DNA from: Clostridia bacterium DTU065
GTDB taxonomy: Bacteria; Bacillota; DTU065
DNA: 32,552 bases
Assembly: GCA_001512545.1 (NCBI GenBank)
Contig: LFSI01000007.1
Coordinates: forward strand, 3,555-36,106
Reading direction: 5' to 3'
Shown here: positions 12,453 to 19,400 of the stretch, piece after piece
Layout: the number at the start of each line of letters is the position of its first letter
How positions within the stretch are numbered: position 1 is the stretch's first letter
Program-made: the position numbers and the translations under genes
The notes under the pieces: generated by a model
What the model was told of the DNA's origin: nothing
The model's input: only the letters and a program-made list of their open reading frames with translations
The model's database searches: none

Positions 12453-13640
12453 TTACCGGCTCTTAAGGAGCGACCTGCCTACACTTAAGAAGAGCTCGGC
12501 GCCATAACCGATGATTTTTTCGTTGAACTTGAACTTGCTGTTGTGCAGAGGCATGCTGCACTCTTCTGTTCTGCTTCCGAGAAAGAGCATGGCACCTGTG
12601 ACCTTTTCGGTGTAAAAGGAGAAGTCTTCAGCAGCCATCGAGGGAAAGCTTAACTCCTTATAAGTTAAGCCTTGTGGGAGGTTTGCCTGTACAATTTCCA
12701 GAGCCGTCTGGTGATTTACGGTCGGCGGATACTGTTCGACATACTCCACCTCCGCTTCCAACCCAAAGGCTTTAGCTGTATACTCGGCGTGCCTCTTCAG
12801 GCTCTCGCCAATCTTCTTTCTTGACTCCTGCGACAGAGCCCGAATGGTCCCTTCAAGGGTTACCTTGTCGGGAATGATATTGTATGCAGTGCCTGCACTG
12901 ATGCTGCCGATGGTCAAAACCGCACCATCCCAAGGAGCTATCTCTCGGGATACGATGCTCTGAAGAGATGTGACGAGGCTGCAGGCACAGACGATAGGAT
13001 CCTTTGCCAGGTGTGGCGCTGCGCCATGACCGCTCTTCCCCTTCAGGACTACGCTGAAGCGGTCGTTTGAGGCCATAATAGTCCCAGGTCTGCTTGCCAC
13101 AATACCCTCAGGAACCTCAGGCCAGATGTGCAGGGCGTAAACGTAATCGGCTCCATCCAAAGCTCCTGCTGCAACCATCCTCTCTGCACCGCCGTAGAGT
13201 TCTTCTGCAGGTTGAAAGATTCCCCTAACCTCTCCTTCCCAGGATGTGTCTTCAACGAAGGAAAGGAGCGTGAGTGCTAGAACCGCCGTGTGACCATCGT
13301 GCCCGCAGGCGTGCATTCTGCCGGGGTTCTCCGACGCAAAGCTAAGCCCCGTCTCTTCATGCACAGGTAAGGCGTCGATATCCGCTCTGAAGGCCACCAC
13401 TGGTCCGCCTTCTCCCCTCTTAATTCTGACCACAAGACCGGTCTCGAGGGGCTGAGAGACTTGAACTTTGGCACCGTTTAGCTCCACTTCTTCAGTAGAG
13501 AAGCCTTTGGACACCAAAAAGTCCCTGATCCGCCTGGTGGTTTCCTTTTCCTCTCGTGAAAGCTCGGGAAACCTGTGCAGTTCCCTTCTGAGCTCAACGG
13601 CACTTTGATAATGCTTGTTGATTATCTCGCTAAACTCCAT
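12453..13640 (-). CDS. M20 family amidohydrolase (N-acyl-amino acid / hippurate hydrolase type)
   Basis: About 395 residues of an M20D metallo-amidohydrolase that removes acyl groups from N-acyl amino acids or related amides in the cytoplasm. Visible motifs are ELHRFPELS near the N-terminus, the metal-binding MHACGHDGHTAVL, FQPAEELYGGAERM with the catalytic Glu pair, ALHIWPEVPEG with a metal His, the dimerisation-domain GHGAAPHLAKDP, and MAAEDFSFY near the C-terminus. The ATG at 13640 is chosen over the track GTG (13646), which lies inside the AGGTGTG ribosome binding site. It is the last gene of a four-gene operon beginning with the DapA-like lyase and may act on the product of the enolase-superfamily enzyme upstream (inference). 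Confidence 0.9.
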   Translation of the reverse strand: MEFSEIINKHYQSAVELRRELHRFPELSREEKETTRRIRDFLVSKGFSTEEVELNGAKVQVSQPLETGLVVRIKRGEGGPVVAFRADIDALPVHEETGLSFASENPGRMHACGHDGHTAVLALTLLSFVEDTSWEGEVRGIFQPAEELYGGAERMVAAGALDGADYVYALHIWPEVPEGIVASRPGTIMASNDRFSVVLKGKSGHGAAPHLAKDPIVCACSLVTSLQSIVSREIAPWDGAVLTIGSISAGTAYNIIPDKVTLEGTIRALSQESRKKIGESLKRHAEYTAKAFGLEAEVEYVEQYPPTVNHQTALEIVQANLPQGLTYKELSFPSMAAEDFSFYTEKVTGAMLFLGSRTEECSMPLHNSKFKFNEKIIGYGAELFLSVGRSLLKSR

Positions 13641-13665
13641 GTTCACACCTGCTTCAAGAGGTAGT

Positions 13666-14841
13666 TTAATAGCTGGCGATCTTTCTACCGTATTTTTCCA
13701 TAATCTGCCAGTTGGGTTCGGTTCCGATTCCCAAACCTTCAGGCAGGTAGATTCTTCCCTTTTTGTCCATCTCGATCTCTATAAGGTCCTTGCCCATACC
13801 GTACCATCTGGCACTAGCCTCGACGTCGGCTGGGTAAACAAAACCATTGAACGAAGCGAGAGCGAGGATCGGCATGGCTCCAACTCCCGACTCGGGCATG
13901 GTGCCGCCCCACAGTTTGATGTTATTCTCTACGGCTAGCTTGTAGAGCTTCAAACCCTCTAAGAGGCCGCCGATTCTCTGAACTTTGATGTTCCAAACAT
14001 CAATGCCGCCAAGTTCAATAACCTGCCTTCCTACCCTAAAAGACTTTAGAGACTCATCGAGGCAGATCGGGGTCTTGACGTTCTTTGCCAGAGCTGCATG
14101 GTCCAGGATGTCATCGTGGTTTAGCGGCTGCTCATAAAAGGTGCAGCCCAGCTGGTCCATTTCCCGGAAAACCTCGGAGTTTTCCAGCTCATAGGAAGAG
14201 TTTGCATCTACCCAGAACAAGAAGTCCGGCCCGATAACCTCACGGGCTGCCCTTGCAGGTTCAATATCCCAGCCGGGCTTAATCTTGATTTTGATTCTTC
14301 TATAGCCTTCCTCCACATAGTCTGCCACCCAGGTCTTCAGAGTGTCGAGACTCCGGTCCCCGGGGATACCCACTGAAACGCCGGACTCGATGTACTCTTT
14401 ATACTCAAGATGCTTCTGGTCTACGCCCATCTGAGCCAGTTTGATCTTGATGGCATCTACCAGACGCAGGTTGTTCTTCTTGGCCACAAGATCCCAGTAG
14501 GCATTTTCCAAACCGGCTTTAGCGAAGTTGTTGCCCCTTATACCTTCTGCCAGAACGCTGTTCAGCTCTTCGATGGAGGTGAACTCCTTGCCTACAACCT
14601 TCGGTATGAGCCACTCATGGAGCATTGCCTTAACCGACGAGATGGTCTCGCTGGAGTAAAACGGTGCGTCAAAAGGCGCCGATTCTCCGTAGCCCACCAG
14701 GTCGCCGGAGGTCATTTTGATAATGATGCTCTGCCTGTTGTAGCTTCTTCCACCGGAGATTTCAAAGGGTACCAGGAGCGGAATGGCCACCTGGTACAGC
14801 TCTATACCGTCTATCTTGATCCTTTCGTCTAAATAACTCAT
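13666..14841 (-). CDS. Enolase-superfamily enzyme, o-succinylbenzoate synthase / N-succinylamino acid racemase-like
   Basis: About 391 residues of the muconate-lactonizing subgroup of the enolase superfamily. The catalytic KxK lysines are in RIKIKIKPGWD, metal ligands follow as Asp (FWVDANSS), Glu (YEQPL) and Asp (CLDESL), and the second catalytic lysine is in NIKVQRIGG; the C-terminal GGTMPESGVGAMP resembles the OSBS/NSAR substrate loop. These enzymes make o-succinylbenzoate in menaquinone synthesis or racemise N-succinyl/N-acyl amino acids. No men genes are nearby and the next gene is an N-acyl-amino acid hydrolase, so racemisation or another N-acyl-amino acid reaction is favoured (inference). 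ATG 14841 is preferred over GTG 14853, because AGGTG lies upstream of it. Confidence 0.85.
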   Translation of the reverse strand: MSYLDERIKIDGIELYQVAIPLLVPFEISGGRSYNRQSIIIKMTSGDLVGYGESAPFDAPFYSSETISSVKAMLHEWLIPKVVGKEFTSIEELNSVLAEGIRGNNFAKAGLENAYWDLVAKKNNLRLVDAIKIKLAQMGVDQKHLEYKEYIESGVSVGIPGDRSLDTLKTWVADYVEEGYRRIKIKIKPGWDIEPARAAREVIGPDFLFWVDANSSYELENSEVFREMDQLGCTFYEQPLNHDDILDHAALAKNVKTPICLDESLKSFRVGRQVIELGGIDVWNIKVQRIGGLLEGLKLYKLAVENNIKLWGGTMPESGVGAMPILALASFNGFVYPADVEASARWYGMGKDLIEIEMDKKGRIYLPEGLGIGTEPNWQIMEKYGRKIASY

Positions 14842-14853
14842 CGTTTGCCACAC

Positions 14854-16080
14854 CTACTTTACCAGTACATATGGATTGAGATCTGTTACTTCGAGGAAGG
14901 TGAAAGGCTCGGTGCCTTTCCCTAGTTTTTCGCGGATGTATATCAGTCCTGCAACCAGACCCTTTTGGGGATTGAAAAGCAACTCGTGCACTGCTTTTCT
15001 GGTTCTGCTTGCATCTATCGGAGCATACTCACTTTGAGGTATCTGGAAAAACGTGTGCATCTGTCCGTTTACCGCACCGCGGAGAGCATACTCAAGCATC
15101 ATCTTCCCGGAACAGATGTTGCCTGTTGCAGAGACCTGCCGAGAAGGTTTGTCATCCAAGACCTCTTCCAGAGCCCAGAGGTTGCGGTCGCTGAGGTCGT
15201 AGCCGCCGTATGCTACACCGACTTTGCCCTCAAACTCCTTGTTGTGGTCGAACAGCCTGTTGAAGCAGATGGCAAAATCTGCAAGCCAGGAGCTGTCCTT
15301 ACCCAGGAATTCTCTGACCAGCTCCCGCTGAAACTCATCTTCCAAAGTTGCGTTCATCATCTTCACGCCCAGGTGAATGGGCTCGTCCACAGACTGCTTG
15401 ATGAGCCTTGGCACATCCTGCAACCAGGAGATGATCATATCCTTCTGTCCCGCCACATCGGTGCCGGCAAACGTTGGAGAGAAGTCCTTCTCCATGACCA
15501 TGTCCTCGTTTTTGTGCTTTTTCCACACTTCCAAAAGCTTTTGAGTAGTATAGGTGTACTCACTCAGCTTGTACTCTTCAGACGGGCCTGGCAGGTGGTA
15601 CTTTACGCTGGGGATAATTGGATATTCTCCTGCCACAGCAAGACACTGGTCGAAGAAGTCCAGGTAGTCGTCGAGGCTCTTCTCCCAGCCTCTGCCCTTC
15701 CACACAACCGAGTAGCCCTCTTCTCCGTTTTTGGAGACGAGCTTTTCCACCACCATCTTGGGTGCATGGATCTTCCATTGATCCATCTCGGCCTTTTTAT
15801 CCTGGTCTTCAGCGATAACGGTTTTCAGAACCGTAAAGCCCAGACCGCCTTCGATATCGGCCATAACCTGCCCCTTGTTTGTAGAAAGCTGACCTGAAGC
15901 CTTGCCAAAGGGGTTTTTGATCTTGAACGGCCCGTAAAAGCTGGACACATCGATGTTGTACCTGTCTTTGATATGGCTTTCGGGCTCTTCAATCAGTCTG
16001 TTGTAGTCCTCATTTAGAGCTTTTTGAAACTCTTCCGAGACCTCAAACTCCTGAGGCAGGAAGTACCGAGGCTTTACCAC
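14854..16080 (-). CDS. Dihydroorotate dehydrogenase-like FMN barrel protein
   Basis: A 408-residue protein that resembles the dihydroorotate/dihydropyrimidine dehydrogenase TIM barrel. An N-terminal extension precedes IKNPFGKASGQLSTNKGQ, which resembles the NPF/V-xxASG flavin segment, then GGLGFTVLKTV; VKMMNA lies where family members have a conserved lysine strand; and SATGNICSGKMMLEYALRGA aligns with the C-terminal phosphate-binding turn. The usual GGI signature is replaced by TGNICSG and the KxxPN base loop is not obvious, so the substrate is probably not dihydroorotate. It starts with GTG after GGAGG, overlaps the DapA-like stop by 7 bases, and sits between a lyase and a racemase-like gene. 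I infer an oxidoreductase step in the same pathway. Confidence 0.7.
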   Translation of the reverse strand: MVKPRYFLPQEFEVSEEFQKALNEDYNRLIEEPESHIKDRYNIDVSSFYGPFKIKNPFGKASGQLSTNKGQVMADIEGGLGFTVLKTVIAEDQDKKAEMDQWKIHAPKMVVEKLVSKNGEEGYSVVWKGRGWEKSLDDYLDFFDQCLAVAGEYPIIPSVKYHLPGPSEEYKLSEYTYTTQKLLEVWKKHKNEDMVMEKDFSPTFAGTDVAGQKDMIISWLQDVPRLIKQSVDEPIHLGVKMMNATLEDEFQRELVREFLGKDSSWLADFAICFNRLFDHNKEFEGKVGVAYGGYDLSDRNLWALEEVLDDKPSRQVSATGNICSGKMMLEYALRGAVNGQMHTFFQIPQSEYAPIDASRTRKAVHELLFNPQKGLVAGLIYIREKLGKGTEPFTFLEVTDLNPYVLVK

Positions 16081-17033
16081 CCCAATCCCTCCAATTCCTG
16101 TACAACCTCTCTGATGGCTGCTCTTTCTTCTTCACTAACCCCCGGTCCGTAAGGATCCCAAGCGGCGCTTTCAGGCACAAGACCCTGAAGCACGCAAATG
16201 TACAACATCCTCTCGATGTAGCCTTCCATAGGTTTGATGAAGGTTACCTCTGCCAGTTTATCCACGAGAACTGTAAGTTCTACGAAAGCCTTGTAATCCT
16301 GATCGTAGTAGGCGTCAATCAAAGCTTTCTGGAGCTTGGTGAATGCAGAACCGATACCTACAAGAGCACCCCTTCCCCCACGCATCATGGTGTAGCCAAA
16401 CATGCGGTCTTCGCCGGTGATCAGGGCTTTGTTGGGGAACTCCTTTGCGATTAAGTTGGATACGTCTTGGTAGGTCATGACCGAATCTAAAGTCGCCATC
16501 TTGATAGCTACTGCGTTTTCCAGAGCAAACAGTTTACGCAGAACATCTAGGCTGTAGGAGATTCCTCCGGCAGCTTCGTAGAGGTAAAACAATACCATGT
16601 CAAGACCTAGTGAATTCAAAGCTTCATGATACTTAACGATGAGTTCGTCTTGATTATCCTTCCCCCTAAAAAAGCTCGGCGCATATGTGAGAATGCCATC
16701 TGCTCCGAGAGCTTTAGCATGCTCTCCCATCTTTTTTGCATCGGCGATAAACTCTTCTTCACTGGTGAAGTTGCGGGAACCTACGCCGCAGATGATCTTT
16801 TTGTCGGAGCTAAGAGCACTTCTGTAGACTTTGTAGACCTTTTCGCGATCCTCTTCCGAGAGCATCAGCCCTCTTCCTGTGTGCGCCCAAACGGCAATAC
16901 CTGTAATGGGCTGTGTGTCCATCCACTCGGCGTACTTCTTCAGCGCATCGTAGTCGATGGTTCCGTCTTTTCTGAATGTTACAGGTACCGCTGGATAGAG
17001 ACATCTGTCAAGTACTAAAGCCATTTTACACAT
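16074..17033 (-). CDS. Dihydrodipicolinate synthase/N-acetylneuraminate lyase family protein
   Basis: A 319-residue Schiff-base TIM-barrel aldolase/dehydratase of the DapA/NAL superfamily. The catalytic lysine is Lys178 in AVAIKMA, paired with Tyr150 or Tyr152 in LFYLYEAAGG, and ITGEDRMFGYTMMRGGRGALVGIG matches the conserved C-terminal barrel strands. The pyruvate-binding loop reads AHTGRGLMLSEEDR instead of the GTTGE of true DapA, and YNxP is changed, so lysine synthesis is unlikely. It is the first gene of the four-gene operon. The ATG at 17033 is close to AGAGGTG; the ATG at 17024 is an alternative start. A keto-acid aldolase or dehydratase role in degradation of an amino-acid or sugar-acid derivative is inferred. 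Confidence 0.85.
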   Translation of the reverse strand: MCKMALVLDRCLYPAVPVTFRKDGTIDYDALKKYAEWMDTQPITGIAVWAHTGRGLMLSEEDREKVYKVYRSALSSDKKIICGVGSRNFTSEEEFIADAKKMGEHAKALGADGILTYAPSFFRGKDNQDELIVKYHEALNSLGLDMVLFYLYEAAGGISYSLDVLRKLFALENAVAIKMATLDSVMTYQDVSNLIAKEFPNKALITGEDRMFGYTMMRGGRGALVGIGSAFTKLQKALIDAYYDQDYKAFVELTVLVDKLAEVTFIKPMEGYIERMLYICVLQGLVPESAAWDPYGPGVSEEERAAIREVVQELEGLGW

Positions 17034-17105: not shown

Positions 17106-18233
17106 TTAAAACAAAACAGCAAGCCCAACTCCTCCGGAAAAGTTAGCGGTTGCAGGTTTTCCCTTGGGAGTCGTGTAAACAACGCCTAAATCTGCCTGAA
17201 GCTGCAGACTGTCCGTGAGGCTTTTTCCAACTGCAAGCTCGGCTCGCAGCTTCTTCTCCACGATTTCGCTGAGGAAAAAGGTTTTGTAGGCCTCATCCCG
17301 GCCAATGGTAGTCCAGTACTCATCGAGGTGACCGGGACCGTGCCACTCGTAGGCTAGGCTGAGACTCGATGAAAAACCGCCGGTTCTTAGGTTCAGGATT
17401 CCACCGAGTTTTAGAGCATCTGGACCTAAATCATCACCGAGAAACTCGCTTCCCGTTGTGTAGCGCCCATGTCCTCCCCAGTGGGAATGCAGGTACCGGG
17501 TATTAGCCAGCGCTGCTGCAGAAAACTGGACCTTCGCTCCGGAAAGTTCGAAGATCTCGGAACTGTAACCTAGAGACACTCCCATCACAGGAAGTTGGTT
17601 GAAGGTAAACGGTATAAAGGGGAAGTCGTCGATGATGGTCTCCACGTAGATGATGGCTCCGCTGTTAAAGACATACCCTGTATTGAACCCCATTAAGACA
17701 TTGATGTCCCTGTTGTTTACCACTCTGCTTTTTAAAGCTAAGTGCTGTACTAGGTATACGGGCAGAAGCGGCACCGGGTTGTACATGAAGTAAATGGTTT
17801 CGTCGTTTCCCACAATCACGCTGGTTTCAAAGAAATCCAGGTAGATTGGAAAACCCTCTTTTGTAGCCTTAAGTCTGTGGGCCACAAACCTTCTAGAACT
17901 ACCAAGGTCGGCAAGGAGCTTCTCATAACGAAAATCAAAGGAGAGAAGCCGGAAAGAAAACTCATAGCCACCTGTAAAAAGGTCTGCAGAAACAGCTACA
18001 GAGGGAAGAGACTTGAACTCCTCGAAGGCGAAGCTGTCGTTGAAATCCACAAACCCTGAACTGGCTTTGAGCTTGAAATTGCCAAAGTCAAACTTCGCCT
18101 TAAAGGTCGGCTTGACCTCTCCTGTGCTTTCTAGATGTACTGCTGCTTCCCCCGACAACTTTATGGCAAATGCTGCAAAGGAAAGCAGGAGGACTAAAAC
18201 CACCGAAATAAACTGTTTTTTTGATATGTTCAT
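17106..18233 (-). CDS. Secreted beta-rich protein, possible outer-membrane barrel
   Basis: A 375-residue protein I cannot assign to a named family. It has a clear N-terminal signal sequence (NISKKQFISVVLVLLLSFAAFA), then alternating-pattern beta-strand segments throughout (for example SLPSVAVSADLFTGGYEFSFR and GVSLGYSSEIFELSGAKVQF) rich in Gly and aromatic residues. The last residues, SGGVGLAVLF, end in Phe, a common feature of outer-membrane beta-barrels recognised by BamA. No lipobox or LPXTG anchor is seen. If correct, the cell has an outer membrane. The start is ATG with GGTGG upstream. It lies 21 bases after alr on the same strand and may be at the end of the alr unit. Confidence 0.6.
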   Translation of the reverse strand: MNISKKQFISVVLVLLLSFAAFAIKLSGEAAVHLESTGEVKPTFKAKFDFGNFKLKASSGFVDFNDSFAFEEFKSLPSVAVSADLFTGGYEFSFRLLSFDFRYEKLLADLGSSRRFVAHRLKATKEGFPIYLDFFETSVIVGNDETIYFMYNPVPLLPVYLVQHLALKSRVVNNRDINVLMGFNTGYVFNSGAIIYVETIIDDFPFIPFTFNQLPVMGVSLGYSSEIFELSGAKVQFSAAALANTRYLHSHWGGHGRYTTGSEFLGDDLGPDALKLGGILNLRTGGFSSSLSLAYEWHGPGHLDEYWTTIGRDEAYKTFFLSEIVEKKLRAELAVGKSLTDSLQLQADLGVVYTTPKGKPATANFSGGVGLAVLF

Positions 18234-18254
18234 TTTAGCTGCACCACCAGATCG

Positions 18255-19373
18255 TTAGTTTGCGGCATTGTTCTTGTAGACTCTGACCAGCCTGCTTGAG
18301 AGTTCCGTAATGATTTCGTAGTGAATAGTGCCGCTTTTTTCCGCTAGCTCGTCTGCGGTAATCTCTTCGCCGTTTTGCCTGCCGATGAGTACTACTTCAT
18401 CGTCCACAGATATGGAATCCTCAAGAGGGACCTCGATCATCAGCTGGTCCATGCAGATATTGCCCACAATGGGATAGCGCTTTCCCTGTATAAGAACGTC
18501 GGTGCCTTTGTGAGAAAGACGCCTGGTGTAGCCGTCGCCGTAACCTACAGGAATTGTCACTATCTGGCAGGGCTTTTGAGTGCGGTAACTAGCACCGTAG
18601 CCTATCGGCTCACCGGCTTCCACTTGTTCGATACGGGAGATCCGCGCTTTCAAAGACAGCGCAGGCGTCAGCCCGTCCCAGAAGGGATCTGCGCTGGGTT
18701 TCAATCCGTACAGGGCAATTCCTGCCCTGATGAAGTTGCTGCCTCTGGCAAGTTTCAGTGCTCCGGCACTATTCGACCAGTGGACCAGCCTCGGACACTG
18801 ATCCCCTAAATCCTCGCACAATTTGCGCATTTTTTCAACCTGCTGCTTGGCGGCGCTGTCGTCTTCCAGATCCGCTGTGGCAAGATGGGTAAAAATGCCT
18901 TCAACGTTTAAGCCCGCTAGCTTTCTCGCCTTTTCCAAAAGTTCTTTAGCTTGTGCAGGGCTCACCCCTAAGCGGTGCATTCCCGTGTCCACCTTCAGCT
19001 GCCCGGAAGCGGTCTTGCCCAAGCTTCGCGCAGCAGCAGACAGCACCTCTGCGCCTCTCAGATCGGTAAAGGCCACAGACAGGTTCCACTTCACAGCCAG
19101 GCGGGCATCTCGTTCGGGGACTACGCCCAACACCAGTATTGGAGCGGCGATTCCCGCTTCTCTGAGGGCGATTCCTTCTTCCACCAGAGCAACCCCAAGC
19201 CAGCTTGCCCCATTGGAGAGGACAGCTTTAGCAACCTCCACAGCACCGCAGCCGTAGGCGTTGGCTTTGATGACCGCCATGATCCCGATCTCGGGATTGA
19301 GGCTTTTTATCAGCTTGAGGTTTGCAACAATAGCGCTTAGATCCACTTCGATCCAAGCTCTGTAATCTTCCAT
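18255..19373 (-). CDS. alr: Alanine racemase
   Basis: About 372 residues of PLP-dependent alanine racemase, supplying D-alanine for peptidoglycan. The cofactor lysine is Lys36 in AVIKANAYGCGA, the opposing catalytic tyrosine lies in IGYGASYRT, and GMHRLGV, HWSNSAGAL, RAGIALYGL, GYGDGYTRRL and VGNICMDQLM mark the barrel and C-terminal domain. The ATG at 19373 is preferred to the track GTG (19385), with GGTG just upstream. It lies downstream of nnr by about 27 bases; the acpS-nnr-alr order is common in Firmicutes and suggests one transcript with the cell-wall genes. Confidence 0.95.
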   Translation of the reverse strand: MEDYRAWIEVDLSAIVANLKLIKSLNPEIGIMAVIKANAYGCGAVEVAKAVLSNGASWLGVALVEEGIALREAGIAAPILVLGVVPERDARLAVKWNLSVAFTDLRGAEVLSAAARSLGKTASGQLKVDTGMHRLGVSPAQAKELLEKARKLAGLNVEGIFTHLATADLEDDSAAKQQVEKMRKLCEDLGDQCPRLVHWSNSAGALKLARGSNFIRAGIALYGLKPSADPFWDGLTPALSLKARISRIEQVEAGEPIGYGASYRTQKPCQIVTIPVGYGDGYTRRLSHKGTDVLIQGKRYPIVGNICMDQLMIEVPLEDSISVDDEVVLIGRQNGEEITADELAEKSGTIHYEIITELSSRLVRVYKNNAAN

Positions 19374-19400
19374 TGTAATCACCAACCAAAATCTATGAGT

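Follow-up and report, generated by a model that had tools for sequence, protein, structure and literature searches.

The window analysed here, a stretch of 32,552 nucleotides from the assembly of Clostridia bacterium DTU065 (contig LFSI01000007.1), carries the gene order cdaA-cdaR-glmM-acpS-nnr-alr, and this bears out the Firmicutes-type neighbourhood first described by a reading of the letters alone (hereafter, the sequence-only reading). Beside alr lies an open reading frame of 375 codons with an ATG start codon (Table 1). Conservation of the frame at 45-58% identity, with synteny, in other genomes marks it as a genuine gene rather than a fortuitous reading frame. The product begins with MNISKKQFISVVLVLLLSFAAFA, an N-terminus of signal-peptide type, as had been claimed. 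The beta-strand pattern attributed to the protein was equally borne out: in a test of two-residue alternation it ranked first among the 27 proteins of the window (z=3.9 relative to its own shuffled sequence), followed by the YbbR-type CdaR protein (2.9). The terminal phenylalanine (GLAVLF) is present as described and is common to all relatives in the order whose C-terminus is assembled. Scans for promoters and terminators returned nothing informative.

Table 1. Coordinates of the barrel gene, its signals and its adjoining genes in the window
Feature	Position	Strand	Remarks
Barrel coding sequence	17106..18233	-	375 aa; predicted divergent Wzi-superfamily outer-membrane beta-barrel protein; basis: open reading frame, homologues, PF14052 link through relatives, fold search
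Putative signal peptide, residues 1-23	18165..18233	-	n-region with KK, then a hydrophobic core and AFA ahead of the likely cleavage site; read from sequence; helix 5-21 in the model
Putative C-terminal strand with terminal Phe (BAM signal type)	17109..17144	-	alternating hydrophobic residues; sequence GGVGLAVLF; model strand 364-374
Shine-Dalgarno-like GGTGGTG	18242..18248	-	8 bases before the barrel ATG; read from sequence
alr, alanine racemase	18255..19385	-	21 bp upstream of the barrel gene
DapA/NanA-family aldolase	16074..17033	-	downstream; follows the barrel gene in 4/4 genomes having it

The spacing between alr and the barrel gene is tight in each of three genomes (21, 17 and 10 bp), and the two genes are probably co-transcribed. 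Four genomes of the order, out of five, share the arrangement alr-barrel-dapA-like. G003, the remaining one, retains the flanking genes, but no barrel gene was found in it; the block from the dapA-like to the M20 gene is inverted there relative to alr (L067, 1-6045). The barrel gene has likely been lost from this genome, although the block lies at a contig end and an assembly gap is possible. Adjoining alr in the window is a conserved string (12453-17033) consisting of the DapA/NanA-type aldolase, a 408-aa protein, an enolase of the MenC/N-acylamino-acid-racemase type, which passes the o-succinylbenzoate synthase cut-off of NCBIfam, and an M20 amidohydrolase; it is possibly a pathway for D-amino acids or N-acyl-amino acids. 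The 408-aa protein (14854-16080), encoded next to the dapA-like gene, is 67-78% identical within the order and had no match in Pfam or NCBIfam; its stretch NPFGKASGQLSTN...GLGFTVLKTV may resemble dihydroorotate-dehydrogenase-type barrels. In UBA4881, the same gene string is followed downstream by a gene for another secreted protein of porin-like appearance, 524 aa long (L037, 15347-16921).

Taken singly, the barrel protein reveals little of its ancestry. It had no match in Pfam or NCBIfam, a scan of the genome contigs with this one protein returned no match, and a phmmer search with it against the PDB gave noise only; neither the protein nor its relatives in the order matched PF14052 (Caps_assemb_Wzi) directly. 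We built a profile (A1) of homologues from four genomes of the order and ran it against 399 genomes of the phylum. It matched 28 of them, four in the family itself, 23 more distant and one artefact; the last, a sensor histidine kinase in G010 (E=0.00996), was discarded. The 23 further genomes are all BamA-containing Bacillota, with E-values down to 7e-28 (L011). Every genome with a barrel homologue (27/27) has BamA, as against 102 of the 399 overall (hypergeometric P=5.7e-18, a figure that treats related genomes as independent). Against the PDB, the A1 profile did not find Wzi, and the viral capsid proteins that it did match there were weak and spurious hits.

The link to a known family comes through the distant relatives. 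PF14052 is matched by 19 of the 26 sequences in the wide alignment, with a best E-value of 9e-85, and the L011 relative, reached directly by A1, matches it at E=2.6e-17. Profile against profile, hhalign assigned a probability of 99.8% over 262 columns. The wide profile recovered E. coli Wzi from the PDB at E=1e-11; when three members, among them the most canonical, were removed, E. coli Wzi was still its sole PDB match, at E=0.033, a drop indicating that the stronger value leans on one canonical member. We consider homology of the barrel protein to the Wzi superfamily well supported and very probably correct on these profile comparisons. The protein is, by the same comparisons, not an orphan. 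The sequence-only reading had called it a lineage-specific envelope component, and this holds for the subfamily and for its place beside alr; the protein itself belongs to a widespread superfamily (PF14052), a link that the reading had not seen.

How far this branch has departed from Wzi as known from E. coli K30 (PDB 2ynk) can be judged from the alignment and the tree. In the tree, the barrel proteins of the order group into a single clade with full support, whose branch is 2.3 changes per column long. They keep LGDDLGPDA and HGPG, both strongly conserved, together with NPxPxxPxYxxQH, and the PF14052-matching relatives share these stretches (as LG-DxLGPDA, HG(E/P)G and NPxPxxPxYxxQH); E. coli Wzi, which aligns with the wide profile, reads LGDAMGGD at the LGDDLGPDA place. 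The WGPG motif, present in E. coli Wzi and kept as WGxG in 17 of 22 alignment rows from other families, has been lost in the order, where VDFNDS, IDFHDS, TNWDED and TDWNDS occupy the site. Wzi of E. coli further possesses an N-terminal periplasmic helical bundle that plugs the barrel from below (PMC3791409), whereas in our model the strands start at residue 25, right after the signal peptide, and the bundle is absent. The two thus have in common an outer-membrane barrel with a signal peptide, predicted in our case, and differ in that the barrel protein falls below the Pfam cut-off, lacks both WGPG and the helical bundle, and is encoded next to alr, outside a capsule locus; a role in polysaccharide binding would be carried over from Wzi.

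The fold was modelled with AlphaFold2 on four sequences, and the result, of low confidence (mean pLDDT 52, pTM 0.51), comprises about 16-17 antiparallel strands, compared with the 18-stranded barrel of the Wzi family. The sequence-only reading had proposed an outer-membrane barrel and named a soluble fold as the outcome that would speak against it; the predicted fold is that of a membrane barrel and not a soluble one. Its best Foldseek match in the PDB is again Wzi (2ynk, E=1.8e-7, TM 0.47). Second is AlgE, the alginate export barrel of Pseudomonas, likewise a barrel serving surface polysaccharide, for which no sequence relationship was found (12% identity in the structural alignment of the weak model); porins of the Occ/Opd and OmpC types follow. 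Because the model is weak, we take the fold search as supporting evidence only. A viral fold search with the same model returned generic barrels only.

An outer-membrane barrel presupposes an outer membrane, and the sequence-only reading had accordingly suggested a diderm Firmicute, with the absence of BamA and other outer-membrane genes as the finding that would count against it. The genome (2.2 Mb, 93% complete) was searched, and it encodes BamA in a frame of 571 aa that combines POTRA domains with an Omp85 barrel (PF01103, E=3.5e-52), adjoined by TamB and OmpH. The lipid A genes are represented by LpxB, LpxC, LpxD and a UDP-GlcNAc acyltransferase of the LpxA type, and LPS transport by LptF/LptG-type permeases, LptA/LptC-like proteins and a large LptD-like protein. 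Most of these outer-membrane genes are clustered on one contig, which also carries the flagellar P-ring (flgI) and L-ring (flgH) genes. Flagellar L and P rings are found in cells that possess an outer membrane, and the position of flgI and flgH beside the tamB-bamA cluster suggests a flagellum with both rings in a Firmicute. Within the order, BamA occurs in all five genomes and LpxC in four. Given the full outer-membrane and LPS gene set, the organism is almost certainly, by gene content, an LPS-diderm Firmicute with two membranes, in agreement with what had been suggested.

The LptD-like protein (L042, 12402-14627) has DUF3769 as its sole Pfam family above the cut-off. Adjoining the tamB-bamA cluster, flgI and flgH are accompanied by a probable flgA (L043, 9285-11902). 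Near the lpt genes lies a gene for a secreted 273-aa protein with one SLH domain (L049, 8194-9015); it may be a tether of the outer membrane, related to OmpM.

Diderm lineages have already been described among the Firmicutes, namely Negativicutes, Halanaerobiales/Halanaerobiia and Limnochordia (PMC10665443, PMC11448272). The host resembles them in its outer-membrane cluster, with BamA, TamB, OmpH, lpx, lpt and LptD-like genes on one contig, and differs in that this contig also has flgA-flgH-flgI, with a Wza-like gene nearby, and in that its lineage is a separate class, represented by five genomes in the set. The nearest named relatives recovered by the scan with the alignment are the uncultured MAGs UBA4881, STF2_155 and AS05jafATM_29, the first of which is listed in NCBI as unclassified Bacillota with no finer placement.

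What the barrel may do at the cell surface is suggested by the company that its distant relatives keep. Several of them are encoded within loci for capsule or exopolysaccharide: the homologue in L051 is surrounded by a Wza-like SLBB protein, a Wzz/GNVR protein, a kinase-type P-loop ATPase and CpsB, and that in L052 by Polysacc_synt_2 and LytR_CpsA_Psr genes. In two different families, similar secreted proteins, one of them LolA-like by Pfam, adjoin the Wzi homologue (L051, 9067-9804, and L053, 7560-8294); such a protein is a possible partner of the Wzi homologue that is absent beside the barrel gene in the window's order. The host genome itself encodes a Wza-like protein near the outer-membrane cluster (Poly_export, E=1.7e-24, with 10 SLBB matches) and, on another contig, a Wzz/GNVR protein with an adjacent P-loop ATPase (Wzc-like). 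Both the Wza-like and the Wzc-like genes lie on other contigs than the barrel gene. Each of the order's five genomes has a Wza homologue; G003 has no barrel gene, yet it does have Wza-like and Wzz genes. All organisms bearing Wzi have been reported to possess Wza homologues (PMC3791409).

The distant relatives in polysaccharide loci, the Wza-like and Wzc-like genes of the genome itself and the capsule binding of E. coli Wzi make an anchoring or assembly mechanism the most likely one. E. coli Wzi is an outer-membrane lectin that binds group 1 capsule and keeps it attached to the cell surface. By analogy, the Sec machinery would export the barrel protein, its signal peptide would be removed, and BamA would presumably fold and insert it as an outer-membrane barrel of 16-18 strands, which may bind or organise at the cell surface a polysaccharide delivered by a Wza/Wzc-like export pathway. 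We infer, at a probability of roughly 0.6, that the protein is a surface-polysaccharide anchor or assembly protein acting with the Wza-like and Wzc-like proteins, its partnership with the former being likewise drawn from the analogy. Function is here transferred across a large evolutionary distance, and three features have changed. Against the transfer stand the lack of a PF14052 match of its own, the fall of the PDB match with Wzi to E=0.033 in the reduced profile and its absence with A1, the loss of WGPG, the absent helical bundle, the weak model, the location outside a capsule locus and the missing gene in G003.

Some of these same points feed the main rival, a diffusion porin, general or substrate-specific, in which a Wzi-type barrel has shed its plug and its polysaccharide-binding features. 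The absence of both the helical plug and the WGPG motif would fit such a protein, as would the Occ/Opd- and OmpC-type porins among the other top fold matches and a gene that lies outside capsule loci next to genes of amino-acid metabolism. However, the best links in fold and in sequence alike lead to Wzi and not to porin families, and the conserved LGDDLGPDA and HGPG are motifs of the Wzi superfamily; we regard a porin as unlikely, though it is the strongest of the competing readings. The setting beside alr, with a gap of 10-21 bp and the alr-barrel-dapA-like order in four genomes, could instead indicate an envelope component tied to peptidoglycan or D-amino-acid metabolism. Such a tie appears improbable, since the homologues checked outside the order do not adjoin alr, G003 keeps the flanking genes without the barrel and so speaks against a strict dependence, and shared transcription is no proof of shared function.

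A further reading, also unlikely, is a history in which a Wzi-type barrel left the capsule system, lost its plug and WGPG motif and became fixed in the alr operon, where it would have taken on a new role, for example as a porin or as a peptidoglycan-linked factor co-regulated with D-alanine supply. By far the least probable is that the protein is a soluble, secreted, beta-rich protein of a single-membrane Firmicute whose barrel-like pattern arose by chance. The low structure confidence and the missing Pfam match would agree with this, but BamA and the complete LPS gene set in the genome contradict its main premise, and the homologues, which match an outer-membrane barrel family, occur solely in BamA-positive genomes.

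Diderm Firmicutes were already known, and the barrel protein represents a divergent, relocated branch of the Wzi superfamily. Our searches of a collection of open-access papers found no description of Wzi in Negativicutes or diderm Firmicutes, and within Bacillota the Wzi-type barrels that the A1 profile recovered are confined to genomes with BamA. The retention of such a barrel in a changed place and without the classic motif makes the role of Wzi-type barrels outside capsule loci testable. Moreover, a deep uncultured lineage of Bacillota with a complete gene set for an LPS outer membrane is hereby added to the diderm Firmicutes, and it bears on the timing of outer-membrane loss in this phylum.
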